A stretch of 64,000 bases of DNA. Origin: Erythrobacteraceae bacterium CFH 75059. Its GTDB lineage: Bacteria; Pseudomonadota; Alphaproteobacteria; Sphingomonadales; Sphingomonadaceae. Position numbers and translations under genes: made by a program. Location of the stretch: contig SJSR01000001.1 in assembly GCA_004331795.1 (NCBI GenBank), forward strand, positions 558,001 through 622,000, read 5' to 3'. Shown here piece after piece: positions 38,308 to 51,619 of the stretch. Under the pieces are notes generated by a model. It was not told where the DNA came from. It did no database searches and saw only the letters and a list, made by a program, of their open reading frames with translations. Within the stretch, counting starts at the first letter, position 1. Every line of letters begins with the position of its first letter.

Positions 38308-38384
<77 letters not shown>

Positions 38385-38679
38385 TAATTTCAGTGACTTC
38401 CGCCACAGCGGCCACGAGCTAGACACTTCCGGATGGCCGAAAGGGGTCTTCTTAGGGGTCTTTCTGCCTGATGTGTGACTCCCGCGCTGTTGGTGGACTG
38501 GGCTAGGCAGGAGCAGGAGACTTGCCAACCTGCGTGCAGCCGTTTGCGTTCTGCGATCCGCCAACGCCAACGTGTCCGGCGCGCGAGCAACAAACTGTTT
38601 GGCTACAGCTCCGACTTTCGTAAGGAGTATTTTGTCGAATTAGAAACCGCGCGCCCCGCTGGCGCGCAGGGGGGGCCGC
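38385..38679. other. left end of the element, leader of the defence operon
   Basis: About 295 bases without a convincing gene. They hold the arm-type repeats (38442-38464), presumably the operon promoter, and a hairpin GCGCGCC-CCGCT-GGCGCGC (38649-38667) followed at once by AGGGGGGG, the ribosome-binding site of the methyltransferase. No good -35/-10 pair stands out; TTTTGTCGAATTAGAAA near 38630-38646 is the only A/T-rich stretch. Confidence 0.5.
38442..38464 (+). repeat. probable integrase arm-type sites, left end
   Basis: Two direct copies of AGGGGTCTT (38442-38450 and 38454-38462; the second continues as TTTC) 12 bases apart, 58 bases inside the left core. The same paired motif occurs inside the right end at 51414-51435 in the same orientation. 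Paired short repeats near both ends are typical of tyrosine integrase arm sites. Confidence 0.6.
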
Positions 38680-39753
38680 GTGGCAGGTTTGTTTGATCGC
38701 TTTGAATGGTTTCACGAAGGCGCACACGGGCGCATTTTTCATGGCGATTCGTATCACCTGATTTCCAATCTGCGCGCCTCATCCGTCGATCTTTTCGTCA
38801 CAAGCCCGCCCTTTGGTCTCGTACGTGAAAAGGAATACGGCAACGTCCAAGCCGACAATTACATCGACTGGTTTCGACCATTCGCCACGGAACTACACCG
38901 GACTTTAAAGAACACGGGCAGTCTTGTAATCGACATCGGCGGCACTTGGAACAAGGGATTGCCAACGCGTCACCTTTACCACTTCAAGCTTCTCATCATG
39001 CTCTGCGAAGAGTTCGGCTTCCACCTAGCGCAAGATTTTTATTGGTGGAATCCGGCTAAGCTGCCGACCCCGGCCGAATGGGTGACTGTCCGGCGCATCC
39101 GCGTGAAGGACGCCATCAACAAAGTTTGGTGGCTGTCGAAAACGCCGTGGCCAAAGGCCAGCAACAAGCGCATTCTGCAGCCGTACAGCGATCACATGAA
39201 AGACTTGCTGAAGAATGGATATCAGCCGAAAATGCGGCCTTCGGGTCATGACATCAGCCAAAAATTTGGAACCGATAATGGCGCAGCTATTCCACCAAAC
39301 TTGATCGCTGTCGCCAACACCGAGAGCAACAGCAGCTATTTGCGCTACTGCCGGGCAAATGACATCAAGCCGCACCCGGCCCGCTTTCCCGTTGAGTTGC
39401 CCGAGTTCTTCGTTCGAATGCTCACAGACGAAAATGATCTTGTGATCGACCCCTTTGCAGGGAGCTGTGTTACTGGCGAAATCTGTGAACGATTGAAGCG
39501 GCGCTGGATATGCGCTGAATTGCGACGCGATTACGTTCAAGGTGCAGTCGGCCGCTTTTTGACCGACGAATTTCCGCCAAACGTGGCCAATCGTAACGCT
39601 GAAAATGTGAGCTACCGCATCGCGCGACCCGGTGCGAACTGGACGGACAGGACCACCGACCAACTTGATGCAACCGGCGGCCAATCCGCGAAAGCGGTGG
39701 CAGCTTCCCCGGTCAAGCGCCCAGTTGGCAGACCAAGGAAGGTCCGGCCATGA
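38680..39753 (+). CDS. DNA methyltransferase, beta class, m4C-type
   Basis: A 357-residue DNA modification enzyme. The catalytic motif is TSPPF (41-45), followed by GLVREKEYGN, and the AdoMet motif DPFAGS (257-262) comes later, so motif IV precedes motif I as in the beta class. TSPPF with a following KEYGN is the pattern of N4-cytosine methyltransferases such as M.PvuII. The stretch between the motifs (about 90-240) should hold target recognition. The C-terminus is basic (KRPVGRPRKVRP), resembling an AT-hook. The start is GTG 38680 with AGGGGGGG before it. First gene of a five-gene operon; its stop overlaps the helicase ATG. Target sequence unknown. Confidence 0.9.
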   Translation: MAGLFDRFEWFHEGAHGRIFHGDSYHLISNLRASSVDLFVTSPPFGLVREKEYGNVQADNYIDWFRPFATELHRTLKNTGSLVIDIGGTWNKGLPTRHLYHFKLLIMLCEEFGFHLAQDFYWWNPAKLPTPAEWVTVRRIRVKDAINKVWWLSKTPWPKASNKRILQPYSDHMKDLLKNGYQPKMRPSGHDISQKFGTDNGAAIPPNLIAVANTESNSSYLRYCRANDIKPHPARFPVELPEFFVRMLTDENDLVIDPFAGSCVTGEICERLKRRWICAELRRDYVQGAVGRFLTDEFPPNVANRNAENVSYRIARPGANWTDRTTDQLDATGGQSAKAVAASPVKRPVGRPRKVRP

Positions 39754-40973
39754 GCGCGCCGCCCGGTGCTGGCTGGAAGGTCAAATACTCGCTTCGCGCG
39801 TGGCAGCAGACTGCGAGCCAAAAGTGGCGCGACAAGCGAAAGGGCGTCGTGTCGGTTGTGACCGGCGGTGGAAAGACCGTCTTTGCCGAAACATGCCTCG
39901 CGGAGTTTTTCGATGCGCATCCCGATGGGCTGGCTGTCATCATCGTGCCAACAAGCGCACTTCTCGATCAATGGTATCTCTCGTTACAAGACGAGTTAGG
40001 CGTTGAGAAAGAAGCAATCGGGGTGCTTGGTAGCGGCGAGCGCCCGCATGAGGACGCCAAGATAGTTATCGCGGTGATTAACTCCGCTCGACGCGTCGCG
40101 GGCAAATGGGCGCAAGACGGCCGCCCGGTGATGCTGGTTGTCGATGAGTGCCACCGCGCTGGATCGCCTGAAAACGCAAAGGCGCTAGAGGGCGTGTTTT
40201 TGGCGACGCTTGGGCTGTCCGCAACGCCCGTCCGCGAATACGATGATGGCTTCGCAGCATATATCGAACCGGCGCTTGGGCCGGTCATTTACGAATACAC
40301 TTACGTAGAGGCCTATGCTGATGGCGTTATTACGCCGTTCGAACTGCACAACGTCCGCGTGGCGATGCTCGAAGACGAACAAGATAAATACGACAGGCTC
40401 AACAAGCGGGTTCGCACGGCTTTTGCGCGAGGCGCATCGGCCGATGACGATGAAAGTTTGCGGCGGCTTTTGCAGCAGCGCGCGGCGGTCAGCGGCACAG
40501 CTCTTATGCGCATCCCAGTCGCGGTGAAACTAATTGAGGATCATCGTGGCGAGCGGGCGATCATCTTCCACGAGCGAACTGACGCCGCCGATCATATCCT
40601 CAAGCTGCTTCAACAGCGCGGCCATTCGGCGACAGTCTACCATGCAGGTCTTGCGCCTGCGCTCCGCCGCGAGAATTTGAGGCTGTTCCGGCGCGGCGTC
40701 TTCGATGTGCTCGTCTGCTGTCGTGCGCTTGACGAAGGCATGAACGTTCCCGAGACCAGCGTTGCCGTTATCGCCAGCTCGACCGCGAGCGAGCGGCAGC
40801 GCATACAGCGGTTGGGGCGAATCTTAAGGCCCGCAAAGGGTAAGGCCGCCGCGACTGTTTACACGATCTTTGCAACGAACGAGGAGCATGACCGCTTGGC
40901 AGCCGAGGCCGACAAACTGAGCGGCATTGCCGCCACTATTTGGCACGAAGGCAGGGCTGCTGTTCGTGGCTAG
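39750..40973 (+). CDS. superfamily 2 DEAD/DEAH-type helicase
   Basis: A 407-residue helicase containing just the two RecA-like domains. Motifs are VTGGGKT (37-43, Walker A), a DECH Walker B (132-135), SAT (157-159), FHERTDAA (273-280) and QRLGRILR (353-360, motif VI). An N-terminal RAWQQTASQKW acts as the Q-motif-like entry. It resembles the UvsW/ERCC3-like helicases found in restriction systems. The short length and lack of an HsdR- or Res-type nuclease suggest it works with the neighbouring protein. It overlaps the methyltransferase stop (ATGA) and the next gene by eight bases. Confidence 0.93.
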   Translation: MSAPPGAGWKVKYSLRAWQQTASQKWRDKRKGVVSVVTGGGKTVFAETCLAEFFDAHPDGLAVIIVPTSALLDQWYLSLQDELGVEKEAIGVLGSGERPHEDAKIVIAVINSARRVAGKWAQDGRPVMLVVDECHRAGSPENAKALEGVFLATLGLSATPVREYDDGFAAYIEPALGPVIYEYTYVEAYADGVITPFELHNVRVAMLEDEQDKYDRLNKRVRTAFARGASADDDESLRRLLQQRAAVSGTALMRIPVAVKLIEDHRGERAIIFHERTDAADHILKLLQQRGHSATVYHAGLAPALRRENLRLFRRGVFDVLVCCRALDEGMNVPETSVAVIASSTASERQRIQRLGRILRPAKGKAAATVYTIFATNEEHDRLAAEADKLSGIAATIWHEGRAAVRG

Positions 40974-41766
40974 GCTACGTTTCAAGAATGATTGGTTCTA
41001 CCCGCTCTCGCCAACCACATTAAGCGAGATGCAGTTTGAAGACCTGCTCATCCAGAACTCGGAAGTTTTTCGGGCATCAAGCTGGATCGTGCGGTTCAAA
41101 AAGGCTATTTACGCCGCCGAAAGCTCCGCGCGGGCTGATCTTGCGATCATCGACCGAGACTACAGAGAATGGTTTGTGGTCGAGGTCGAGATGACCAGGC
41201 ACAGCCTGTACGGGCACGTGCTGCCGCAAGTGAGGACACTTCGCGACGGCTTCTACGGCCAGCCGGAAGCAGAATATCTTTCGGAGCGGCTTCCCGCTGC
41301 GGACCCGGCGCGCGTCGCGGACTTAGTGCGCGGCAAGAGCCCCCGTATTGTCGTGATCGCTGACCGCGCCTCGCAGGACTGGGGCAAAGTGCTGGCCGGG
41401 GCCGATGTCGAGTTCATAACCCTCGAAGTTTATAAGTCCGAACTGAATGCCTACATTTTCTCGGTCGATGGCGGTCTGCCGCAGCGAGCGCACGATCTCG
41501 TGAGCTATTGCACCATTCACCCCATGCTGCCGCGCCAACTGATCGTTGAGTCTCCAGCGTCACTTGGCATTGCCGCCAACGAGCGGCTGTCGGTATTGTG
41601 GGAAGGCCAGATGATTGAGTGGGTCCGAATGGATTCTGGCGATAGCTGTTACTTGCGCACACGGGGGCCGGTGAGGCTAAAGACGGGAATTCGTTACGCC
41701 CTTCTGGTTGTGGAAGATGGCCAGATTGAACTAAAAGCCGTTGGCAAAGAGGGGATTGAGTCATGA
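40966..41766 (+). CDS. uncharacterised protein, possible PD-(D/E)xK-like nuclease
   Basis: 266 residues from GTG 40966, which overlaps the helicase stop. The N-terminal 100 residues have a nuclease-like layout: an early acidic helix (MQFEDLLIQNSEVF), a strand with Asp58 (SARADLAIID) and a strand WFVVEVEMTR with Glu73 and Glu75. A PD-(D/E)xK enzyme would have Lys where Met or Glu stands here, so the site is unusual or degenerate. The C-terminal half is beta-rich. Its place between a helicase and a MORC-type ATPase favours a DNA-cutting or DNA-recognition role. I do not recognise a named family. Confidence 0.7.
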   Translation: MARLRFKNDWFYPLSPTTLSEMQFEDLLIQNSEVFRASSWIVRFKKAIYAAESSARADLAIIDRDYREWFVVEVEMTRHSLYGHVLPQVRTLRDGFYGQPEAEYLSERLPAADPARVADLVRGKSPRIVVIADRASQDWGKVLAGADVEFITLEVYKSELNAYIFSVDGGLPQRAHDLVSYCTIHPMLPRQLIVESPASLGIAANERLSVLWEGQMIEWVRMDSGDSCYLRTRGPVRLKTGIRYALLVVEDGQIELKAVGKEGIES

Positions 41767-43271
41767 GCGTGAAGTTCGGGATCGGGAACAACACGATTCG
41801 ATCCTATCGACGGCTGGCCTACACACCATGGCACGCGATGGCCGAGTTTGTCGACAACAGTAGCCAAGCGTACTTTAACAACAAGGCTACGCTAGACGAG
41901 GCGTATGCGGCAGCTGGTGAGAAGCTGCATGTTCATATTGCTTATGATGCCGATGAGGGTGTCTTAAGCATTGCTGACAACTCCATCGGCATGAACCTTG
42001 AGGAGCTAGCTCGCGCACTTCGCGTCGGAATCCCGCCTGAGAACGCAGACGGTCGGTCGCGCTACGGTATGGGGATGAAAACAGCGAGTTGCTGGATCGG
42101 TAACGTCTGGACTGTTGAAACCAAAAAGCTCGGAGAGGACACTGCCTACCGGGTAACGATTGACGTTGAGAAGGTGGCCGATGGCGAGGAGGATCTGCCG
42201 ATACAGACCTTCTCCAAGCCTGCCGACCTTCATTACACACTCATCCGCATCACAGCGCATAACCGCCGCTTCCACGGCCGCACCCTTGGCAAGATCAAGG
42301 AGTTCCTTAGTTCTATGTATCGCGAGGATTTCCGTGCCGGCATAATGGAGCTGCGCTGGCAGGGTGCCATCCTTTCTTGGGATGAGATCGATAACCGCCT
42401 CCTGCGCGACAAATCAGGCGCGCTTTACAAAATGCCCTTCAATTTCGAGATCAATGGGAAGAAGGCTAGCGGTTGGGCAGGCGTTCTTGAAACCGGCGGC
42501 CGAGCTTACGCCGGGTTTTCGATCATTCATTCTGGTCGCGTAGTTAAGGGCTATCCCGATTCATGGCGCCCCGAGAAAATCTACGGCGGTGGCGGAGGCA
42601 GAAATGATCTGATCAACCAACGCCTCATTGGTGAAATTCATCTAGACGACTTCGACGTGTCTCACACGAAGGATGATATTCTTTGGTATAACGATGAGGA
42701 AGAACAGGTCGAAGCGAAGCTCGAAGAAGCAATCAAGGACTACATCGCTGCAGCTCGCCAAGTGAAAAAGAACCGCTCCGGCGATGGACCATCAGAAGGC
42801 GAAATCGATGCAGCCCTTGCAGCTTTGAAGCAGGAACTCCTCTCCAAGGAAATGATTGACTTAATCCAAGTTGATGTTGTTCCATCTGAAGAGGACATAA
42901 AAAATGCCCGGCACGCTATCGCCGCTGAAATCATAGGCACTGAGCCTGATTTTATCGCTAAGATTGGGGAACAGCTTCAGGTCGCCATATTTATTGAAGA
43001 AGGCATGAGTCTGAACGATCCTTACGTGATTTATGAATCCGCCAAACCTGATCAGGTATGCGTAATCATCAATCAGAACCATCCGCACTTTAGTCAAATT
43101 GAGGGTACTGAGGGCGTAGCTAACTATTTTCGGCACTGCATCTATGATGCGATTGCGGAATGGCAGGCCGCTAGGAAGGTGGGCTCGATAGATCCAGACA
43201 CGATCAAATCGTTCAAAGACGGTTTGCTGCGCGTGGGCATTCGAATTGAGCAGTCAGACCCTGCTGCTTGA
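41763..43271 (+). CDS. MORC/MutL-type GHKL ATPase
   Basis: 502 residues. The GHKL ATP-binding fold is clear: N-box MAEFVDNSSQAY (Glu28, Asp31, Asn32), DNSIGM (72-77) and the ATP-lid motif GRSRYGMGMKTAS (97-109). An S5-like domain follows with the lysine segment FDVSHTKDDI (298-306); this SHTKDD form is shared by MORC ATPases and their bacterial relatives. The C-terminal 180 residues are a helical region and a small alpha/beta tail. By comparison with the prokaryotic MORC systems described by Iyer, Abhiman and Aravind, it is expected to clamp or compact DNA in a restriction or defence system. It overlaps the preceding gene (ATGA). Confidence 0.92.
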   Translation: MSVKFGIGNNTIRSYRRLAYTPWHAMAEFVDNSSQAYFNNKATLDEAYAAAGEKLHVHIAYDADEGVLSIADNSIGMNLEELARALRVGIPPENADGRSRYGMGMKTASCWIGNVWTVETKKLGEDTAYRVTIDVEKVADGEEDLPIQTFSKPADLHYTLIRITAHNRRFHGRTLGKIKEFLSSMYREDFRAGIMELRWQGAILSWDEIDNRLLRDKSGALYKMPFNFEINGKKASGWAGVLETGGRAYAGFSIIHSGRVVKGYPDSWRPEKIYGGGGGRNDLINQRLIGEIHLDDFDVSHTKDDILWYNDEEEQVEAKLEEAIKDYIAAARQVKKNRSGDGPSEGEIDAALAALKQELLSKEMIDLIQVDVVPSEEDIKNARHAIAAEIIGTEPDFIAKIGEQLQVAIFIEEGMSLNDPYVIYESAKPDQVCVIINQNHPHFSQIEGTEGVANYFRHCIYDAIAEWQAARKVGSIDPDTIKSFKDGLLRVGIRIEQSDPAA

Positions 43272-43359
43272 TAGATTGCGACGCGGAGTCGAGTTTAGCA
43301 TCTAACTTGGGCGTGTTGCCCCCCCCTGCATCACATTTGGCTTTGAGGGGTAAGTAAAG

Positions 43360-44973
43360 ATGAATGCATTCCGTGAGGCGCTGACGCCCTTGGCCCAACG
43401 ATTGCCCCGCATTGCGCGGGAGCACGAGATACTGCGCTTTGCGGCAGATTTGCCGACCGTTGGTAATGGTGCCAACGCGGCGGTGATCGCGCGCCAGCAG
43501 ATTTTGCAATGGGCTCAGAAACGAAGTGGCGGCTCGTTTCCAGCAATGGCCTTTGCCGGTGAAAGTTTCGAACATCTTGCTGCTGGTCGAAACAGTGCTG
43601 CCCTCAGGCTTCAAACAAATGATCTCGATATATGGGCAATCCGCCAAGATGATCCCGATAAGCAGGTTCCGGGTCGGATTTGGACCACGGAGGCGGTTGT
43701 CTGGAAATCAAAGGACGACATTGCTCATGTTGCAGGCCGATTGCTGGTGGGAACGAGCGAAGCGCAAATAGATATTGCGCCCGCTGTGCCTGGATTTGCG
43801 ATGCAGCTTGTCGAGCATTGCGGGATTTGTTCGGCTGGCCACCCCGTTCGCTCAACACCATGGTATATCAATTCACAGGGCGATCAGGACGATTTTCTTG
43901 ATTTATTGACAGACCAGAGAAGGCGGCTCCCGATCGTCGTCATCACCACCATTGACGAGAACGAAACGCGCACTCTGGTTGACCCGGCAGTTCTTGCCCG
44001 TGCGCTAACTGGATTGGCGTTTGTAGTAGCGATTTTGCCGGCCACATCATGGGAGATAACACAACGTTTCGATAAGCGCCGCTCCGTGTTCGGCGGAGCT
44101 GCCCGCGTGTATATGCCGGGCTTCGATGAAGATTCAGACGCGTATGCTCATCCGTTGCTTTTGGCCACCAGCCTGAACACGGTTGAAAAAGGAGCATTGG
44201 GCGAGCGGCGCATCCGGGAGATGGTGTCGCAGTTCAGTTTGCGTGCTGTGCGATTGGGCGAGCACGTGATCCCCTTTTCACGGCTCCGCAGCCTTGCACT
44301 GGAAGCCAAGCAAGAAGTGCTGACCGCAGAAGGGGCGGCCGACGAAGATCAGCTGGCGGCGTCTAATGAACGAATTGCGTCACTAGAGGTGGAATTGCAC
44401 GAAGCCAGGGAAATCGAAAGGCTAGCTATCGAAGAATCGGCAATGGCCGAAGAGCGTGCGCGATTGGCGGAGGCGCAAAGTGCCAACGCGGCGGCGAGGG
44501 TTCAGCAACTCCTACAACAATTGAAGGAACGCGGAATTGATCCAGACGACGGCGCGCAGCTTCCCGAGCAGTGGGGCAGCTTTGTCGATTGGTGTGATGA
44601 GCAGTTGGTCGGCCGGGTTGTGCTCACTGGGGCAGCGCGAAGGGGATGCAAAAAGGCTATCTTTGGCAACGTTCAGCTAGTTGCGCGCTGTATGCTTTGG
44701 CTCGCGACGGAATGCCGATCACGCTTCATGGAAGGCGGCGGGTCGTTGCGCGATGAGGCGCTGGAATCTGGTATTCGCAATGCGCCCTGCGGCAGTGATG
44801 CGTTTGATAGCATTTGGATGAGCGGCAAGATCAAGATCGACTGGCACATTAAGACGGGCGGCAATTCTCGCGCCCCCGAGAATTGTTTGAGAATTTATTA
44901 CGGATGGGACGACGCAACCCAACAGATTATCGTGGCAGATATGCCTGCGCATAGGACCACTGCCGCGTCTTGA
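43360..44973 (+). CDS. coiled-coil protein with unrecognised N-terminal domain, last gene of the defence operon
   Basis: 537 residues in three parts. Residues 1-320 are an alpha/beta region (LDIWAIRQDDPDKQVPGRIWTTE, then PIVVITTIDENETRT and LTGLAFVVAILPATSW). Residues 329-392 are a clear coiled coil rich in Glu, Arg and Ala. Residues 400-537 are helical and then beta (KIKIDWHIKTGGN, CLRIYYGWD, IIVADMPAHR); the strand-rich end faintly resembles small RelE/ParE-type toxins. An 88-base gap and GAGGGG precede it, so it may have its own expression level. Not assigned to a family. Position implies an effector, sensor or DNA-bridging part of the system. Confidence 0.8.
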   Translation: MNAFREALTPLAQRLPRIAREHEILRFAADLPTVGNGANAAVIARQQILQWAQKRSGGSFPAMAFAGESFEHLAAGRNSAALRLQTNDLDIWAIRQDDPDKQVPGRIWTTEAVVWKSKDDIAHVAGRLLVGTSEAQIDIAPAVPGFAMQLVEHCGICSAGHPVRSTPWYINSQGDQDDFLDLLTDQRRRLPIVVITTIDENETRTLVDPAVLARALTGLAFVVAILPATSWEITQRFDKRRSVFGGAARVYMPGFDEDSDAYAHPLLLATSLNTVEKGALGERRIREMVSQFSLRAVRLGEHVIPFSRLRSLALEAKQEVLTAEGAADEDQLAASNERIASLEVELHEAREIERLAIEESAMAEERARLAEAQSANAAARVQQLLQQLKERGIDPDDGAQLPEQWGSFVDWCDEQLVGRVVLTGAARRGCKKAIFGNVQLVARCMLWLATECRSRFMEGGGSLRDEALESGIRNAPCGSDAFDSIWMSGKIKIDWHIKTGGNSRAPENCLRIYYGWDDATQQIIVADMPAHRTTAAS

Positions 44974-45088
44974 GTGCCCTCTGCCTTTGAAGGGCGGCGC
45001 TCATAAGGAACAAGCGTCCCAGTAATCACTATACGCCAGTATCTTACGGACAGCGCAGTGCAATTCGAACGTGCCGATCAGTTGGAAA

Positions 45089-45107
45089 AGGGTCTATTCG
45101 GGGGTCT
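45089..45107 (+). repeat. third, degenerate copy of the arm-type repeat
   Basis: AGGGTCTATTCGGGGGTCT keeps the spacing and most bases of the paired AGGGGTCTT motif seen at both element ends. It lies between the defence operon and the palindromic element, possibly an old internal boundary. Confidence 0.35.
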
Positions 45108-45158
45108 CCATGCTCGGTTGATCCTGATCGTACCCTGTTGGCAGGCCGCTAGACCTAG

Positions 45159-45421
45159 GCCGTGAACTCATAAACGTTGTATCCCGGCACGCATTTGAGA
45201 GGCCCGTCACGAGTGAGCAAGCGCAGTGGCGGTAGCAGAGCTACCGCCACTGCGCCGCGAGCGCTGTGCCGGGCCTCTCAAATGCGCCCTGCGGGTGGAA
45301 CGCGGCCAAATGGCGTCGTTGCGTGGCCTTGCCGGGGGGGCGAAGCCCCGCCTGCGGCCCCGCGCCTAGCCATTTGGCCGCCTCAGTCCATGACGGGGCA
45401 CGACGTTTATGAGTTCACGGC
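45159..45421. mobile_element. 263-bp nested-palindrome element, MITE-like
   Basis: Terminal inverted repeats GCCGTGAACTCATAAACG (45159-45176) and its complement (ending 45421) are flanked on both sides by CTAG, a possible 4-bp target duplication of the IS5 type. Inside are a 16-bp inverted pair (45191-45206 with 45270-45285) enclosing a perfect 15-bp hairpin with 5-base loop (45221-45255), and a second pair (45302-45314 with 45369-45381) enclosing a short GC hairpin. No reading frame encodes a transposase. The element sits between the convergent halves of the island; in 44974-45436 I see no gene. Confidence 0.65.
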
Positions 45422-45436
45422 CTAGTTCTTGACCAG

Positions 45437-45700
45437 TTATGTGGCGCTGCCGAAGTTTTGCTCCCACTCGAACCGGTCCCACTTGGCGGCGGAAATCAGG
45501 TGGGGCGCAACTTGGCAAATGCGCTTCACCTCGTCGGCCTCGACAGAGAGTTCGAGTTCCGTCGCGCCGTCCGCACCTGCCAGCGGGCCGGGACCGGGTG
45601 GCCAGACGATGAGGGTGAACAGGCGTTCCCCCAATTCCTTGCGGGGCGGCTTCACCCGAATGTAGCCGATGCTGGGCAGATCGATGCCGCCGATAATCAT
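45437..45700 (-). CDS. hypothetical protein, 87 aa
   Basis: A small acidic protein that begins MIIGGIDLPSIGYIRVK and has an acidic centre (LELSVEADEVKRICQ). GAAGGAAGC before the start is a good ribosome-binding site. Last gene of the leftward accessory operon of the element. No family recognised; single-strand DNA-binding or adaptor roles are common for such genes, but nothing in the sequence shows one. Confidence 0.6.
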   Translation of the reverse strand: MIIGGIDLPSIGYIRVKPPRKELGERLFTLIVWPPGPGPLAGADGATELELSVEADEVKRICQVAPHLISAAKWDRFEWEQNFGSAT

Positions 45701-45847
45701 GGGTAGCTTCCTTCAGCTTGTGGCCCTTCGGCCCCGGCGCTGAGGCCGGGGCCGGGCGGGCGGGTGCGGAGAACGGGTGCACCCCCAGCCGCCGGGCAAG
45801 GGCGGAACCATACCCCGCCCGGCAAGACGAACTTGGGCGTCAGAGCC

Positions 45848-46087
45848 TCACCGCTTGTTGGCGGGCGTAGGCTCGGACTGGAGATTGGCCGGGTCCGGCG
45901 CGTCGATGACATGCCGCCGGGTGCCCACCTCCACCGGCAGGATGCCCGGCGTCCTCGGCTGGCGCAGGTCCATGGGTTCGAGCGCCTCGTAGGTGTAGCC
46001 GCCCTTGCCGTCCGGGATGGCGATGTTGGCAGGCGGCACGACCGGCGGTTCGGTCTCGTGCGGAGGCTTTGTGGTTTTAGAGTTCAT
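45848..46087 (-). CDS. hypothetical protein, 79 aa
   Basis: A short Pro-rich, probably unstructured protein (KPPHETEPPVVPPAN, then DGKGGYTYEALEPMDLRQP). AAAGGAAC precedes the ATG. It lies 18 bases after the coiled-coil gene on the same strand. A strong GC hairpin (45730-45753) follows in the gap before the next gene. Function unknown. Confidence 0.55.
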   Translation of the reverse strand: MNSKTTKPPHETEPPVVPPANIAIPDGKGGYTYEALEPMDLRQPRTPGILPVEVGTRRHVIDAPDPANLQSEPTPANKR

Positions 46088-46105
46088 GATTTGTTCCTTT
46101 CATGG

Positions 46106-46702
46106 TTAAAGTCCGAGTTCGGCCACAAGCGCCGCGCTCTTGTCCGGCCCGAAGCCGTCGCCAACGACCGTGGCGACAAATTTCGAGATGTCGTGGAAGC
46201 CAGCACCTTCAACGCGGAAGATGGGCTGCCCTGCGGTTTGGGCCCAATGCCAATGTTCTTGCGGCAGCCGCGCCAGCAGGGACTTGTGCAAGGTGGCGAT
46301 GCGTGCGGCCTCCCGAGTCTGCGCTTCCGCCGCCGCGTGCAGTGCCGAAAGGACGGCCCGCCATAGCGCTTCCCGCAGCGGCTCCACCTCGGCCAACAGC
46401 CGGGTGTGTTCCTCGCGCAAGGCATTCACGCGCTGCTCGGCCTCGGCAATGTCGCGGGCATAGCGGCTGGCGGCAAAAGTGTGCTGGTCGCGGGCGGTGC
46501 TCCATTCCTCTGCGCTGGCGTAGGCCTCCGGCGTGGGTTGCGGCCCCAGCCGGACCTGCCCGTCCGCCAATGCCGACAAGCGGGCAGATGCCGCGTCCAG
46601 TTCGGCGCGGGCAAAGGCGGCAGCCTTCCGCTGCGCCGCATCGAGCGCTGCCCTTCGCGCGGCGAAGTGCTGCCGGGCCTGTTCGTCGAATAGATCAATC
46701 AT
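46106..46702 (-). CDS. coiled-coil accessory protein of the element
   Basis: 198 residues, mostly helical with Ala, Arg and Glu heptad-like spacing (residues 10-150: FAARRAALDAAQRKAAAFAR, REEHTRLLAEVEPLREAL). The C-terminal 45 residues are a small folded tail. ATG 46702 has GAGGAG upstream; an ATG eight codons earlier is less likely. It follows the probable origin and may be a partitioning, replication or phage-interference helper; the sequence does not decide. Confidence 0.65.
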   Translation of the reverse strand: MIDLFDEQARQHFAARRAALDAAQRKAAAFARAELDAASARLSALADGQVRLGPQPTPEAYASAEEWSTARDQHTFAASRYARDIAEAEQRVNALREEHTRLLAEVEPLREALWRAVLSALHAAAEAQTREAARIATLHKSLLARLPQEHWHWAQTAGQPIFRVEGAGFHDISKFVATVVGDGFGPDKSAALVAELGL

Positions 46703-46731
46703 GGTGCCGCTCTCCTCAGTCAGCATGGACA

Positions 46732-46866
46732 GGCCCCGAAAAGGCCCCGATGGCCCCGAAAGCCCCGATGTTTAGGGTCTTGCGAACGAATAATTCCTGG
46801 GTGGGAATTAACTTCGTCTAAGGGTCGATTTGGCGGGGCCTGCGGGGCCATCGGGGCCTTTTTCGG
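46732..46866. other. candidate replication origin of the element (inverted iteron arrays)
   Basis: Four copies of GCCCCGA about 10 bases apart (46733-46769) and, in the opposite orientation, three copies of CGGGGCC about nine bases apart (46834-46858) flank an A/T-rich core. The core has a dyad TAATTCC-TGGGT-GGGAATTA (46790-46809). The outer 22-23 bases form an almost perfect inverted repeat (46736-46757 with 46844-46866). The region lies directly downstream of the primase-helicase gene, as the origin does in several P4-type elements. Confidence 0.5.
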
Positions 46867-46877
46867 TCTGGCCATGG

Positions 46878-49334
46878 CTACATGCCCCCCAAATCGTCCG
46901 GCGTGCGCCGATATTGCCTCAATTCGGCCCAGCCCCGGCCTGCCAGCGGGCTATCGCCAGACAGCGGCAGAGTGGCAGCGATGTATTGGTTGCGCCCGTC
47001 CACCTTTGGGCGCTCCTCGTGCTTGCAGACGTGCAGCCCGGCGCTGGCCAGCCATCCACGGATGACATGCGCTGGCACGTCGCTGCCCGCGCGGCGCTTG
47101 CCACCGGCAGCGCGCACCCATGGCAAATAGTCTTGCTCCACCAAGATGACCGGCTGCCCTTGCGCCTTGGCCATTTCGGCCAGATCGAGCGCCGCCCGTT
47201 CTTCGGCAGAACGGCTATCCTCGATGAGATGGCTCTTCCGTTTGGTGCCCGGTGCCGTCTCGCCGGGGCGAACAGCGTGGCCCTTGCCCTTCACGAACTC
47301 CTGCGCCCAATGCACGATTGCGCCATGGCCGCCGCTGGCCAGCCAGCCGTGGAAGCGCGCCCAAAAGCCCGCATCGCCATCGGGATGCTTGGCCTCAGTC
47401 ACGCGCGGTACCAGCCACCGCCGGTCGCTCTGCTCGATCATCAATGCGCGCTCGGAGTTTGACCCAAGCAGAAAGTGCGCCTGATTGCGGACGTTGTAGG
47501 TCGCGGTGAACTTCTCATTCACCAGCAGCAATTCGTCTGTGATGGCGGACTTGAGCCGGTTGTAGGCCTTCCAGCTTCCGCCTTCGTAGATTTCATGGAC
47601 GGCGACCAGCCGCTTGCGCGCCAGCCAGCCGTTGAAATCCGAGTTGACGATGAGGGAGGCCGAAGGCGTGCTGCAATTCTGCAATCCGACCAGCGCACAC
47701 ACTATGTCGAACAGCGTGGACTTGCCGACGCCTTGCATGACCGACACCAGCAATACGCCATACATCATCCGCACGCTCGGCAAGGCGACGAGCGTGGCGA
47801 GCCACCGGCAGAACTCGTGGCGATCCTCTTTGTCCGGGAACAGGTGCGCAAGGAACTGCTCCCAGATGCCGCTGGTGTCTTTCCACGGCGCAATGTGCGG
47901 CGGCATGTGCGTATTCAGCACCCGCTGCCCGCCCAGATTGATGATGCCCGGCAAGCGCCCCGGCTCGTAGGCAATGCCATGCACGATCGACTTGTAGGCC
48001 TGTGCCTCGAACACTTCGGACAGGCGGCGCACGTGACTGAATACCCGGTTGATCGCGTCGAACTGCTGCGGATTGAACAACAGCGCCGGGTTGTGCTTCG
48101 GCGCGAACATCGTGCCGCTCGGCGTCACGATCTGAATCCAGAGCGCCGCGAACTCCTGCCGCAAGATTATTGGTGGTGTGCTCGGACGGCCCCGGCCAGT
48201 GGCAGGGGGCGGATTGCCGAGGCGCGTGGCCTGCGTTGCGGGCAGCGTGCAGTCGCGCATGGTAGGCCCGGCATAGCGCGGTGGCCCGTCGCCAGCCTTC
48301 TTGAACAGCTTCGCGGGGAACGGGTCGGCCAAGTCGAAACTCAACGGCCATTGTTCGGTGGTGAACCGCACCGCCTCGACAGTGACCGGATATGCCGCCA
48401 GCAGCCGCGCAATCTTGGGCACCGCGTCGTGCCCCGGCCCGTCATTGTCGGCGACGATGACAATGCGTTCGGCATTGGCCAGCGGCGACCAATCCGTCCT
48501 GTGCGGGTTCAGCGCCCCGCCAATCCAACCCAAGTGCGCCGCGTGCTGCAATTCCTTGCCCCACGGATGGGCGGCGAGCGCGGCCTTGGCTTCCGGAGTG
48601 GCCGCCTCCACCATGCGCCGCACGGCGCGCGCGGCCTTCGCCCCTTCGTGCAGAAAGACGATGCTATGCGTCTTGAGTTGATCGAGACCCCATAGGGGCA
48701 ACAGCCCTTCCGGCTCCAAGCGCCGCCACTGGTTGTCGTCCCAATAGGTCCAAGGTAGACAGGCCTTATCGCCGTTGGCTCTATAGACCCGCTGTTCGAG
48801 CATGATGATCTGACTGTGCCCGGCGGCGTCGGGAATTGTGCGGAACTCGAACAAGTCACCAGCCTTTTGCGCTTCTCGCAGCGCGTCGGGCAGGTATCTT
48901 GCTTCCCAAGGGGTGACGTGCTCTGGCCAGAGCGCCGCCGCCGCCGCTGCGACAATGAGCAGGCGCTCGCTATCTGTGGGCTCGAAATCCGCGGCATTCT
49001 CGCCTTCCGCCGCGCGGACAGGCATCCGCCATTCTGCACCCTCTTTGGTCAGCCTAATGGTGGCGCGCGACTGCACATATTTGCCGTCACGTTGCTCCAC
49101 CCGCGCTGTGCGCATGCCGGTCACTGTCGCACCGATGCGGTCGAGATATGCGCGCACGGGCGGGAGCCACCCCCAATCTGCGATCATGTGCCGGGCGTCC
49201 GCCGCCGGGCCGCTCCCGTCGCCGCTCGCCACAGAGGCGGCGTCGCCGGTAGGTTCGCCCTCGTCCGGTCCCGGCGGTGCTCCCTGAGGCTGCAAACCGG
49301 CTGCCCTGGCGTCGTGCTCCGGGTCGGTCGTCAC
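46878..49334 (-). CDS. P4-type primase-helicase (Toprim plus SF3 helicase)
   Basis: An 818-residue replication protein. An N-terminal 120 residues are variable and acidic. A Toprim-like region spans about 224-302 (IVFLHEGAKAARA with Glu230; IVIVADNDGPG with Asp296 and Asp298), implying primer synthesis. The C-terminal half is an SF3 helicase of the DUF5906 kind with Walker A QGVGKST (534-540) and a Walker B-like VAVHEIYEG. The C-terminal 120 residues may bind the origin. It overlaps the AlpA-like gene by four bases and is followed by the iteron region. The element probably replicates autonomously after excision. Confidence 0.9.
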   Translation of the reverse strand: MTTDPEHDARAAGLQPQGAPPGPDEGEPTGDAASVASGDGSGPAADARHMIADWGWLPPVRAYLDRIGATVTGMRTARVEQRDGKYVQSRATIRLTKEGAEWRMPVRAAEGENAADFEPTDSERLLIVAAAAAALWPEHVTPWEARYLPDALREAQKAGDLFEFRTIPDAAGHSQIIMLEQRVYRANGDKACLPWTYWDDNQWRRLEPEGLLPLWGLDQLKTHSIVFLHEGAKAARAVRRMVEAATPEAKAALAAHPWGKELQHAAHLGWIGGALNPHRTDWSPLANAERIVIVADNDGPGHDAVPKIARLLAAYPVTVEAVRFTTEQWPLSFDLADPFPAKLFKKAGDGPPRYAGPTMRDCTLPATQATRLGNPPPATGRGRPSTPPIILRQEFAALWIQIVTPSGTMFAPKHNPALLFNPQQFDAINRVFSHVRRLSEVFEAQAYKSIVHGIAYEPGRLPGIINLGGQRVLNTHMPPHIAPWKDTSGIWEQFLAHLFPDKEDRHEFCRWLATLVALPSVRMMYGVLLVSVMQGVGKSTLFDIVCALVGLQNCSTPSASLIVNSDFNGWLARKRLVAVHEIYEGGSWKAYNRLKSAITDELLLVNEKFTATYNVRNQAHFLLGSNSERALMIEQSDRRWLVPRVTEAKHPDGDAGFWARFHGWLASGGHGAIVHWAQEFVKGKGHAVRPGETAPGTKRKSHLIEDSRSAEERAALDLAEMAKAQGQPVILVEQDYLPWVRAAGGKRRAGSDVPAHVIRGWLASAGLHVCKHEERPKVDGRNQYIAATLPLSGDSPLAGRGWAELRQYRRTPDDLGGM

Positions 49335-49639
49335 GCGGCGTCGTCCGGACGAACGGCACCCATGCGAGCTTCAACCGCCGCCTCCATGTCCGCGAGACGC
49401 CAGCCGAACACCTTGGGACTGAAAGTCACACGCGGGGGGAGCTTGCCATCCGCTTCCAGTTCCCGAAGTGTCTTGGGCGTGATGCCGAGCATAGCCGCCG
49501 CCTCGATAAGGCGGACGAGCGTATGGCCGCTGAGGCGCTTGGCGCGTTCGCGGGCGAGGTCCATCTGTTCAACGCGCCGCTGCTTGCGGGCTTCCCATTC
49601 AGCTAGATCGGCACCGTCACGGTGCTTGCGTGCAGGCAT
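49331..49639 (-). CDS. AlpA-like helix-turn-helix regulator / excisionase
   Basis: A 102-residue protein with a basic N-terminal helix and a MerR/AlpA-type helix-turn-helix: VRLIEAAAMLGITPKTLRELEADGKLPPRVTFSPKVFGWRLADMEA. P4 AlpA activates integrase and guides excision. Its stop overlaps the primase-helicase start, so they share a transcript. A 12-bp palindrome lies about 110 bases before its start and may be its operator. Confidence 0.85.
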   Translation of the reverse strand: MPARKHRDGADLAEWEARKQRRVEQMDLARERAKRLSGHTLVRLIEAAAMLGITPKTLRELEADGKLPPRVTFSPKVFGWRLADMEAAVEARMGAVRPDDAA

Positions 49640-49747
49640 AGGTCACCACCCTTCTCAACCGCCAAGCGGCTAAATGTTGGATGATGCCGAGAGCCTTTAC
49701 GCCGGTTTGATGGGGTGTCCGGTCCCCCCGCTCTGGCAGTCAAGATC

Positions 49748-49775
49748 GCGTTCGAACGCCAATACATTCGAACGC
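49748..49775. promoter_or_regulatory. candidate operator between alpA-like and integrase genes
   Basis: GCGTTCGAACGC (49748-49759) is a perfect 12-bp palindrome; a second TTCGAACGC follows at 49767-49775, 16 bases on. The repeats lie in the 302-base gap (49640-49941) between the AlpA-like and integrase genes, which otherwise holds only A/T-rich promoter-like sequence. Confidence 0.45.
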
Positions 49776-49941
49776 AACCTTTATGCCTCGACTCGCCGGT
49801 GAAGAAAACAACTTTTCTTTCCCGGCCTATGCGACCCAAAAAGTTGTAATTTGAGCGAGAGCTTAGCTCCTTTCTTTTCCGTCTCCGCGCCAATTCAAAT
49901 TTCTGGTAAGATGGACGCATGTTGTTTTGGTGCTTGCGCGC

Positions 49942-51387
49942 TCACCGAAACGACATCTGAACTACGTTTTCGGCTGCCGTCCCCTCCACAATCGTCAACA
50001 GTTTGCGGCTCCACCACTCCAGCAGCTCGCGCTTCCTCAGGCGGTAGCGGCGCTGGAGGTCGCCGTGGTCATAGACGCGAGTGACACCAGCGGTAATTTC
50101 GTGGTTCACGGTCGCTTGCAGCACGTCGAGCGGGGCGGACCATGTGATTTCGCCTGCCGCATTCTCTTCGCCGTCGCGGCAGCGGGTTATGAAAGTGTGC
50201 CGCAGGTCGTGTAGCCGCCATGGCGTCACCGGGGTCGCGCCGATCTTGGCCAAAGCCTCCGCCTTCAACTTCCGGGTGTCGGGTCGCAATGCGCCGCCCG
50301 CGCGGATGGACCGCCATTCGGCGTCTGAGAGGTTGGCGAGCTCGCCTTGCACGGTGCGGTTGAGCTTGGCGCGAAGCGGGGTCCAGCCGCTGATGGGCGT
50401 GTCACCTGCCTCTGAGGGGAACACCAAGCCGGACTTGTGCCCTAGCGCCTCGTAGGCCTCCTGCATCTCCCGCAGAATGGCGAGCGCCGGGGCGGTCAGC
50501 GGCACTTCATGTGTGCCCGCGCGATTCTTCACCCGGTCAGCCGAGATGATGAGCAACTGCCGGTCCCAATCGACCTCATCCCAACGCAGCTCTGCAATCT
50601 CCGACCGGCGCTGGCCCGTCAGCATAAGCATACGCACGACCGCGCCGAACGAACCGCCCTGTCGGTTCGTAGCGCGCCAGATGGCGCGCAATTCTTCGTC
50701 AGCGAGAGCCCGAACCTCCTTCACTGGCGCTTGCCGCGCCGTCATGCCGGACGTGGGCAATTGTCCGTGGAACAGACCGCGCGACTGGGCGAAGCGGAAC
50801 ACCATGCGGACGTTCTTCAAAGCTGCATCGACCGGGCCACCGTCTTTCTCAATGCACGACAGAAGGCGGGCAATCATAGCCGGAGTGATCTCATCCAAAC
50901 GGGTGTCGCCCAGCGTCGGCAGCACCAGCCGGGTTAACAGGCTTTCGCGCCCAATGGCGGTGCCCGGTGTCACTGGCCGCTTGCGACCGCCCACCAGTTT
51001 GCTGGCCTTCATGGCCGCCACATATTCCTCGGCCACGTTCGCGAAGGATTGCGCTCGACGGTTTGCTTCTTCCCGCTCCTCAGCCCTGCGCTCCTCAGCG
51101 GCTTTGACCTCTGGGTCGATGCCCTGGGCAGCAAGGACCATAATCTCGTTAGCCGCCTTGCGCGCCGACGCGACGCCTATAGCCGGAAAGCGCCCCAAAA
51201 CCATTTTGCGGCGCTGACTGCGCTTGCCAGCGGTATCGGGCAGCCGGAAGATGGTGACCCAACTCTTGGTGCCGTTCGGCGTGATCCAAAGGAACAACCC
51301 CGGCTCCGTGTCAGATACTTCCGTGCGGCCCTTCGCTGGGCGGCGATAGCGCTCGACTGCGGTGTCGGTCAGATGCGTCTTGGCCAT
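49942..51387 (-). CDS. tyrosine integrase (P4-type, DUF4102 N-terminus)
   Basis: A 481-residue site-specific recombinase. The N-terminal DUF4102 arm-binding domain is visible (LTDTAVERYRRPAKGRTEVSD, LWITPNGTKSWV, LGRFPAIGVASARKAA). The catalytic residues are Arg260 (LTGQRRSEI), His393 and Arg396 (RLHDLRHTF), His429 (NHEITAG) and Tyr439 (RVYDHGD). It reads away from the right end with its 5' side facing the attachment core, and P4-type integrases usually target tRNA genes, which matches the 48-base repeat. All catalytic residues are present, so excision may still be possible. Confidence 0.97.
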   Translation of the reverse strand: MAKTHLTDTAVERYRRPAKGRTEVSDTEPGLFLWITPNGTKSWVTIFRLPDTAGKRSQRRKMVLGRFPAIGVASARKAANEIMVLAAQGIDPEVKAAEERRAEEREEANRRAQSFANVAEEYVAAMKASKLVGGRKRPVTPGTAIGRESLLTRLVLPTLGDTRLDEITPAMIARLLSCIEKDGGPVDAALKNVRMVFRFAQSRGLFHGQLPTSGMTARQAPVKEVRALADEELRAIWRATNRQGGSFGAVVRMLMLTGQRRSEIAELRWDEVDWDRQLLIISADRVKNRAGTHEVPLTAPALAILREMQEAYEALGHKSGLVFPSEAGDTPISGWTPLRAKLNRTVQGELANLSDAEWRSIRAGGALRPDTRKLKAEALAKIGATPVTPWRLHDLRHTFITRCRDGEENAAGEITWSAPLDVLQATVNHEITAGVTRVYDHGDLQRRYRLRKRELLEWWSRKLLTIVEGTAAENVVQMSFR

Positions 51388-51413
51388 GCCTTTTCTCTGT
51401 CGGTTTGCCCGCG

Positions 51414-51435
51414 AGGGGTCTTTTAGGGGTCTTTC
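51414..51435 (+). repeat. probable integrase arm-type sites, right end
   Basis: AGGGGTCTT at 51414-51422 and AGGGGTCTTTC at 51425-51435, 11 bases apart, in the same orientation as the pair inside the left end. They lie between the integrase start and the right core. Confidence 0.6.
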
Positions 51436-51571
51436 CGTCCGTTTTTCAGCGGTCGGCTCCGTTCGCTATCCCCTACGCTTCTCGCTCCAAAACGACAAAA
51501 AGAAAAGCTAAAATAACATCTTAGATGGGACCAAAGGTTGCCTGCGTTCGCCTCCGTTTGTCATGCAGGCC

Positions 51572-51619
51572 GCCCTCCGAAGGCAGAGGTCACAGGTTCG
51601 AATCCTGTCGGGTGCGCCA
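51572..51619 (+). repeat. attR core (48-bp direct repeat)
   Basis: An exact copy of tRNA-Arg bases 38337-38384. No D arm or 5' acceptor strand precedes it, so it is a duplicated attachment core and not a second tRNA gene. Confidence 0.95.

Follow-up and report, generated by a model that had tools for sequence, protein, structure and literature searches.

P4 alpha is a fused primase-helicase that recognises repeats, and P4 uses an ori together with a separate crr. Gram-negative PICIs have an origin of another design, in which two sets of iterons flank an A+T-rich core located 3' of rep, a layout which that study ascribes to PICIs and to 'no other known bacterial replicon' (PMC6092414, Fillol-Salom 2018). 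The Gram-negative PICIs of that report were found in Gammaproteobacteria. When rep-ori of one such island, EcCICFT073 of E. coli, was cloned, the temperature-sensitive plasmid formed colonies at the restrictive temperature; deletion of rep left no colonies under these conditions, and deletion of ori significantly reduced them (PMC6092414). A related arrangement has been described for the Rep/PriRep-ori systems of the SaPIs of staphylococci. There the helicase gene is followed directly by the origin, recognition of the iterons falls to the C-terminal domain, and the involvement of two hexamers has been suggested; the primases of SaPIbov1 and SaPI5 belong to the AEP family (PMC7581432).

The window analysed here, a stretch of 64,000 nucleotides from Erythrobacteraceae bacterium CFH 75059, contains a site with this organization, and we consider it highly probable that positions 46733-46858 are the replication origin of a 13.2-kb PICI-type integrative island, with binding and replication by the island's own primase-helicase predicted. 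The four GCCCCGA repeats, the three opposed CGGGGCC repeats and the A/T-rich core with TAATTCC and GGAATTA that were called in the initial annotation were all confirmed at the positions listed in Table 1. The spacing of about 10 bases given there was inexact, the copies being separated mostly by 9 bp (11, 9 and 9 in array 1; 9 and 9 in array 2). Both arrays fit within 126 bp, and the two arms contribute a 29-nt inverted repeat (46739-46767 / 46834-46862) that is 93% complementary. Array 2 ends 19 bp from the primase-helicase stop codon (46878-46880, minus strand), bearing out the annotated position just downstream of that gene. The core has 55% A+T compared to 35% for the primase gene, a relative rather than an extreme enrichment, and the core dyad alone is modest, since 37 of 2000 shuffled cores contained one as good.

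Table 1. Positions of the proposed origin and of the surrounding island features in the window.
Feature	Position	Strand	Basis or detail
tRNA-Arg(CCG), site of integration; the 3'-terminal 51 bp (38334-38384) are one of the two end repeats	38308-38384	+	
Defence-like cargo block	38680-44973	+	Family profile matches
Gene downstream of the proposed origin, 206-aa ORF	46106-46702	-	Likely start ATG 46702; ORF open from 46726
Iteron array 1, GCCCCGA x4 at 46733, 46744, 46753, 46762	46733-46768	+	Sequence reading, facing-array scan
Core between arrays, proposed melting region	46769-46833	.	65 bp, 55% A+T
Core dyad TAATTCC-N6-GGAATTA	46791-46810	.	TAATTCC 46791-46797, GGAATTA 46804-46810
Iteron array 2, inverted, CGGGGCC x3 at 46834, 46843, 46852	46834-46858	-	Sequence reading, facing-array scan
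818-aa primase-helicase, proposed initiator	46878-49334	-	Pfam, PHROGs, structure model
Excisionase/AlpA-like HTH protein	49331-49639	-	phrog_66 match
Tyrosine integrase, adjoining the second tRNA-Arg copy	49942-51387	-	Family profile matches
Second copy of the 51-bp tRNA-Arg 3' end (98%), other island end	51569-51619	+	

Facing arrays were quantified with a scan for 7-mers that allowed one mismatch and accepted at least two copies per side, a spacing of 7-13 and a gap of 30-200, the score being the number of copies plus the number of exact copies. An earlier, looser score, which asked for at least five copies with up to one mismatch, was reached by 20 of the 30 family loci described below, yet also by 34 other tiles out of 318 overlapping tiles in this G+C-rich window, and the counts were therefore redone with exact copies added. 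The site scored 13, a value found in the three tiles containing it among 636 overlapping 400-bp window tiles; 16 of the other tiles scored 7 and none scored higher. When the window was divided into 159 non-overlapping tiles, so that the site itself straddled two of them, 22 tiles reached 6, four reached 7 and none reached 8. None of 2000 dinucleotide shuffles of 46601-47000 reached a score of 13. Three GCCCCG copies at 9-bp spacing occur only at this site, once per strand, in the 2.26-Mb host assembly; a backwards-pattern control for this genome count was uninformative, since the reversed pattern is the same string.

Judged by its sequence, the stretch 38334-51619 is an integrated island, because it is bounded by tRNA-Arg end repeats and carries an integrase, an excisionase-like HTH protein and the primase-helicase between them. 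The 51-bp copies of the tRNA-Arg(CCG) 3' end are 98% identical and 13,235 bp apart, with the integrase at one end, as in PICI-type elements, which are about 10-15 kb in size. In the sole other genome of the genus, the tRNA-Arg is present with a left flank that is 71% similar, without a primase match and without a common right flank, and this empty-site comparison gives partial support for insertion. PICIs as whole elements carry an AlpA activator between int and pri-rep and show phage-dependent induction, interference and packaging. The HTH protein of the window island matched the phrog_66 excisionase/regulator family, with MerR/HTH_17 just below the cut-off, and was not recovered by a phmmer search with the EcCICFT073 HTH protein. 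The primase, downstream, HTH and integrase genes all have intact open reading frames. Within the cargo block we found a DNA methyltransferase (PDLC03323, 9.1e-119), an SF2 helicase whose nearest models are PbeA and dnd-type restriction, a 279-aa protein with no family assigned, an HSP90/MORC-type ATPase with a weak MzaB match, and a HEC-07-like protein (HEC-07 model PDLC04161, 1.8e-166). Phage structural families were absent among the part of the island protein set that was scanned.

The 818-aa proposed initiator has a Toprim-like region at residues ~139-364, a DUF5906/D5-like helicase at ~386-700 and a C-terminal part extending to residue 818. DUF5906 was its single Pfam match (4.8e-18), and its PHROGs matches were mainly to DNA primase families. 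In a structure model with a mean pLDDT of 85, the top solved relative of the helicase part was the NrS-1 helicase (Z 24.3, rmsd 5.2, 366 aligned), followed by AEP/D5-type viral primase-helicases, and the SaPI5 primase-helicase also aligned (Z 17.6, rmsd 6.0, 372 aligned); residues 139-364 matched a T7 primase fragment (Z 11.5, rmsd 4.0, 163 aligned). Based on the T7 match for one part and the NrS-1 and SaPI5 matches for the other, we interpret the modeled protein as a fusion in which a Toprim-like primase precedes a D5/SF3-like helicase.

A sister island was found at tRNA-Arg(CCG) in Sphingomonas echinoides ATCC 14820 (L039/L044, L086), where 54-bp end repeats that are 94% identical lie 15,759 bp apart and the integrase and HTH gene are related to those of the window island. 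The two islands share 54% identity in the primase and 52% in the downstream gene, and the interval between these genes in S. echinoides keeps the facing layout at 9-bp spacing with a different unit, AGGGGCG/CGCCCCT. Its core dyad, AAATTC/GAATTT, was equalled by 18 of 100 shuffles. Reading of the open reading frames in its cargo (L044, 12913-16789) revealed type I restriction-modification-like ORFs, which are flanked by the HTH gene on one side and the integrase on the other; the cargo of the window island lies beyond the predicted origin.

We extended the comparison to primase genes in other genomes, counting a locus as positive when a paired array scored at least 7 in the 400 nt that follow the stop codon of the primase gene. 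Primase similarity identified 29 further family loci in 397 genomes. The stop codon and the DNA beyond it could be read in 28 of them (L036, which has no stop codon in the locus, was dropped), giving a family set of 30 with the window and S. echinoides islands. A phylum set of 28 PF19263 loci was taken from 30 matches listed with loci after removal of L137, a family member, and L140, from the window's own genome. Among the family loci 22/30 scored at least 7 and 16/30 at least 8, leaving eight below threshold, and outside the family 12/28 phylum loci scored at least 7, the same number at least 8, leaving 16 below. The corresponding controls at a score of at least 7 were 0/177 coding tiles, 4/159 window tiles and 1/1800 and 5/1680 shuffles, and at a score of at least 8 they were 0/177, 0/159, 0/1800 and 1/1680, respectively.

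The geometry is conserved across these loci and the units change, with locus-specific examples including TCGGTGA, AGCGCGT, GTCAGTG, AGCGCTA, GGTAGAC, TAGACGG and AGGTCGG. In the 34 loci above threshold, the copy-to-copy interval was 9 bp in 83 of 119 cases and the gap between arrays had a median of 98 nt and a range of 33-196 nt, the scan having allowed 30-200. The core was richer in A+T than the gene in all 20 family loci tested, DUF5906 was present in 8/8 family primases scanned, and an integrase-like ORF (E <= 1e-4) was located within ~10 kb of the primase in 17/20 family regions examined, namely the 20 of the 28 family loci that were taken with wider flanks.

Several features of individual loci were recorded alongside the survey. 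A conserved core dyad was considered and rejected, as fewer than 10 of 100 shuffles were as good in just 5/34 loci, S. echinoides not among them; the inter-array stretch of L139 has a perfect 15-bp dyad that none of 100 shuffles equalled. In L018, L021, L130 and L132 the first iteron begins 0-5 nt from the start of the stop codon, so the stop codon is part of the repeat in some loci. The unit GGTAGAC/GTCTACC is common to L012 and L014, both from the Sphingomonas family, and to the E. coli island (L167, from ~12000), which could reflect either shared specificity or convergence.

Viral and plasmid homologues were scanned as well. None of 37 viral-contig homologues from IMG/VR reached a score of 6, though these are nearest in sequence over the full length; this set contains some near-duplicates and was obtained after eight of 45 loci with a broken frame or contig end were dropped. 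Because two of 11 named phages scored exactly 7, the contrast with phages is clear for the IMG/VR contigs only. For plasmids with a DUF5906-type protein, a search of 600 nt found three of six with a score of at least 8, two of them near-identical, and in the three that passed the arrays do not adjoin the primase stop but begin ~300 nt beyond it; the facing-array scan returned nothing for two of the six, in which same-direction repeats are visible by eye. Also by eye, AATAATCCCA repeats flank an A+T-rich stretch after the primase gene of two 6.5-kb Klebsiella plasmids (L120, L121) in the same direction, possibly a variant of the layout. Taken at the sequence level, these loci suggest that the PICI-type layout has a wider distribution, being common behind primase-helicase genes of Alphaproteobacteria and of hosts outside this class, and present close to such genes on some plasmids.

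We also weighed whether the site could act in RNA, as a hairpin that serves as a terminator or attenuator between the primase and downstream genes on one or both strands. Such a role is possible at this locus because a very stable hairpin forms on either strand, with folds of -88.6 kcal/mol (z -7.8) on the plus strand and -84.7 kcal/mol (z -8.1) on the minus strand that 0/200 shuffles matched in stability; the arms here form a long, nearly continuous hairpin and are followed by T-runs of 5 (+) and 4 (-). A terminator scan found none at the locus, a result with no bearing on a long hairpin since only loops of 3-8 were accepted. A hairpin could form, however, without each arm being built of a unit repeated several times in tandem, and the next gene on the same strand begins ~30 bp past the outermost unit. 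In the relatives, moreover, the inter-array stretch varies from 33 to 196 nt, and in 14/34 loci the spacing between copies in one arm does not mirror that in the other, so that a single continuous helix would not be expected there. An RNA hairpin is thus an improbable account of the site. It is about equally improbable that the repeats serve another protein of the island as operator or arm-type sites, whether the HTH/excisionase protein, the integrase or a repressor. Direct repeats near 10-bp spacing are typical of such sites too, and genes for an HTH protein and an integrase are found in the vicinity, but in the window ~5 kb separate the arrays from the att site and 2.8 kb separate them from the HTH gene. 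Across the loci, arrays instead follow primase-helicase genes whose primase parts differ, and their location agrees with that of described PICI origins.

An inverted repeat that arose by chance or has decayed, and that serves no function, is the least probable explanation, and we give it hardly any credence. It would fit the rarity of close relatives of the island, since in 396 genomes of the order the downstream gene, its own entry aside, had a single strong match, with four further matches that were weak (E 2.6e-4 to 6.9e-4), and a search in 295 genomes of the partner island's genus found a match in the partner alone. Decay or chance is nevertheless at odds with the open primase, downstream, HTH and integrase genes, with a score that no shuffle in 2000 reached, and with the retention of the geometry in relatives. 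The annotated proposal of a probable origin near the primase-helicase gene is instead supported, as a prediction, by its position, its geometry, its recurrence with changed units in relatives and its likeness to the stretch taken as the origin of EcCICFT073, which PMC6092414 reports to be functional, and we favor the origin reading for these reasons. The family and phylum loci below threshold, the viral-contig homologues without arrays, the two plasmids negative in the scan and the stable hairpin at this locus count against it, as does the weak outcome of the distance comparison given below.

As a replication origin, the site would be bound by the primase-helicase at its GCCCCGA/CGGGGCC iterons, most likely through the C-terminal domain, and each array would be the assembly site of one oligomer, probably a hexamer. 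Their facing orientation would place a pair of helicases on opposite strands, from where they could melt the A+T-richer core and travel outward, with the fused Toprim-like primase laying primers for the host polymerase. The origin would be expected to act on the excised circle. We also compared iteron distances with protein distances: in 20 family loci, iteron distance correlated with that of the ATPase domain (r 0.26, p 0.005) and less strongly with that of the C-terminal part (r 0.14, p 0.04), with nothing left for the C-terminal part given the ATPase (r -0.02, p 0.60). Across 33 loci there was no significant correlation. Most of the distances look saturated, and no signal specific to the C-terminal domain emerged from this weak test.

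These results raise a broader hypothesis, to which we assign roughly even chances: that a portable origin grammar accompanies the DUF5906 helicases which integrative islands and some plasmids encode throughout Proteobacteria. In this grammar two facing arrays of 8-9-bp units would surround an A+T-rich core immediately behind the gene, each lineage re-inventing the unit and the geometry staying constant whatever primase part is fused (Toprim-like, Prim-Pol or RepB-type). If true, a layout reported for PICIs alone would become a general replicon type, with compatibility groups that are readable from DNA. Since every locus pairs a repeat of its own with the neighbouring initiator, comparison of the loci could reveal which helicase residues read which iteron, and sharing or exclusion between islands and plasmids could be predicted from it. 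For an island of the Sphingomonas family that carries defence-like genes, the window site itself provides a candidate origin open to testing; a literature search of partial coverage found no earlier report of such an origin in Sphingomonadaceae.

Compared to described systems, the initial choice of a P4-like system as the reference does not hold up well. P4 shares the fused primase-helicase, but the P4-family model TIGR01613 gave the window protein 29.1 bits against a curated cut-off of 108.7, and P4 has an ori and a separate crr whereas both arrays here lie within 126 bp. The NrS-1 primase-polymerase (6k9c, 6lrb) is the top match of the helicase part in both structure and sequence, but this match is restricted to the C-terminal region (model residues 390-789). 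The SaPI systems resemble the window island in having an origin downstream of the helicase gene and in the fold match to the SaPI5 primase-helicase (7om0, 7ola), and they differ in their AEP-family primases, where the window protein has a Toprim-like part, with 10% identity in the structural alignment.

The nearest tested counterpart is the PICI Pri-Rep origin. We identified the EcCICFT073 island in CFT073 by its place and gene content (integrase, HTH protein, primase, PerC-type regulator and capsid gene) and not by a label, the sequence record giving it no name, and the putative origin stretch after its primase stop has facing TCTACCT arrays that score at least 8; on the looser scale it scored 6, and 0/500 shuffles reached 5. 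The EcCICFT073 origin and the predicted window origin both lie directly 3' of a Pri-Rep gene with two sets of short iterons around an A+T-rich stretch, both initiators have a DUF5906 helicase domain (5.1e-10 for EcCICFT073), and both islands have the integrase and HTH gene upstream. They differ in the iteron, which is TCTACCT there and GGCCCCG here, and in the primase part, which is Toprim-like here whereas Pfam shows just D5_N, DUF5906 and Pox_D5 there, as well as in the alphaproteobacterial host and defence-like cargo of the window island. The window locus presents the sequence features of a PICI Pri-Rep/ori system, with a putative origin 3' of the proposed initiator, two iteron sets, an A+T-richer core and a D5/SF3-type helicase with a fused primase. 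The predicted window origin would add to the known PICI-type origins, and of greater interest is how widely their layout occurs while its unit changes from locus to locus.
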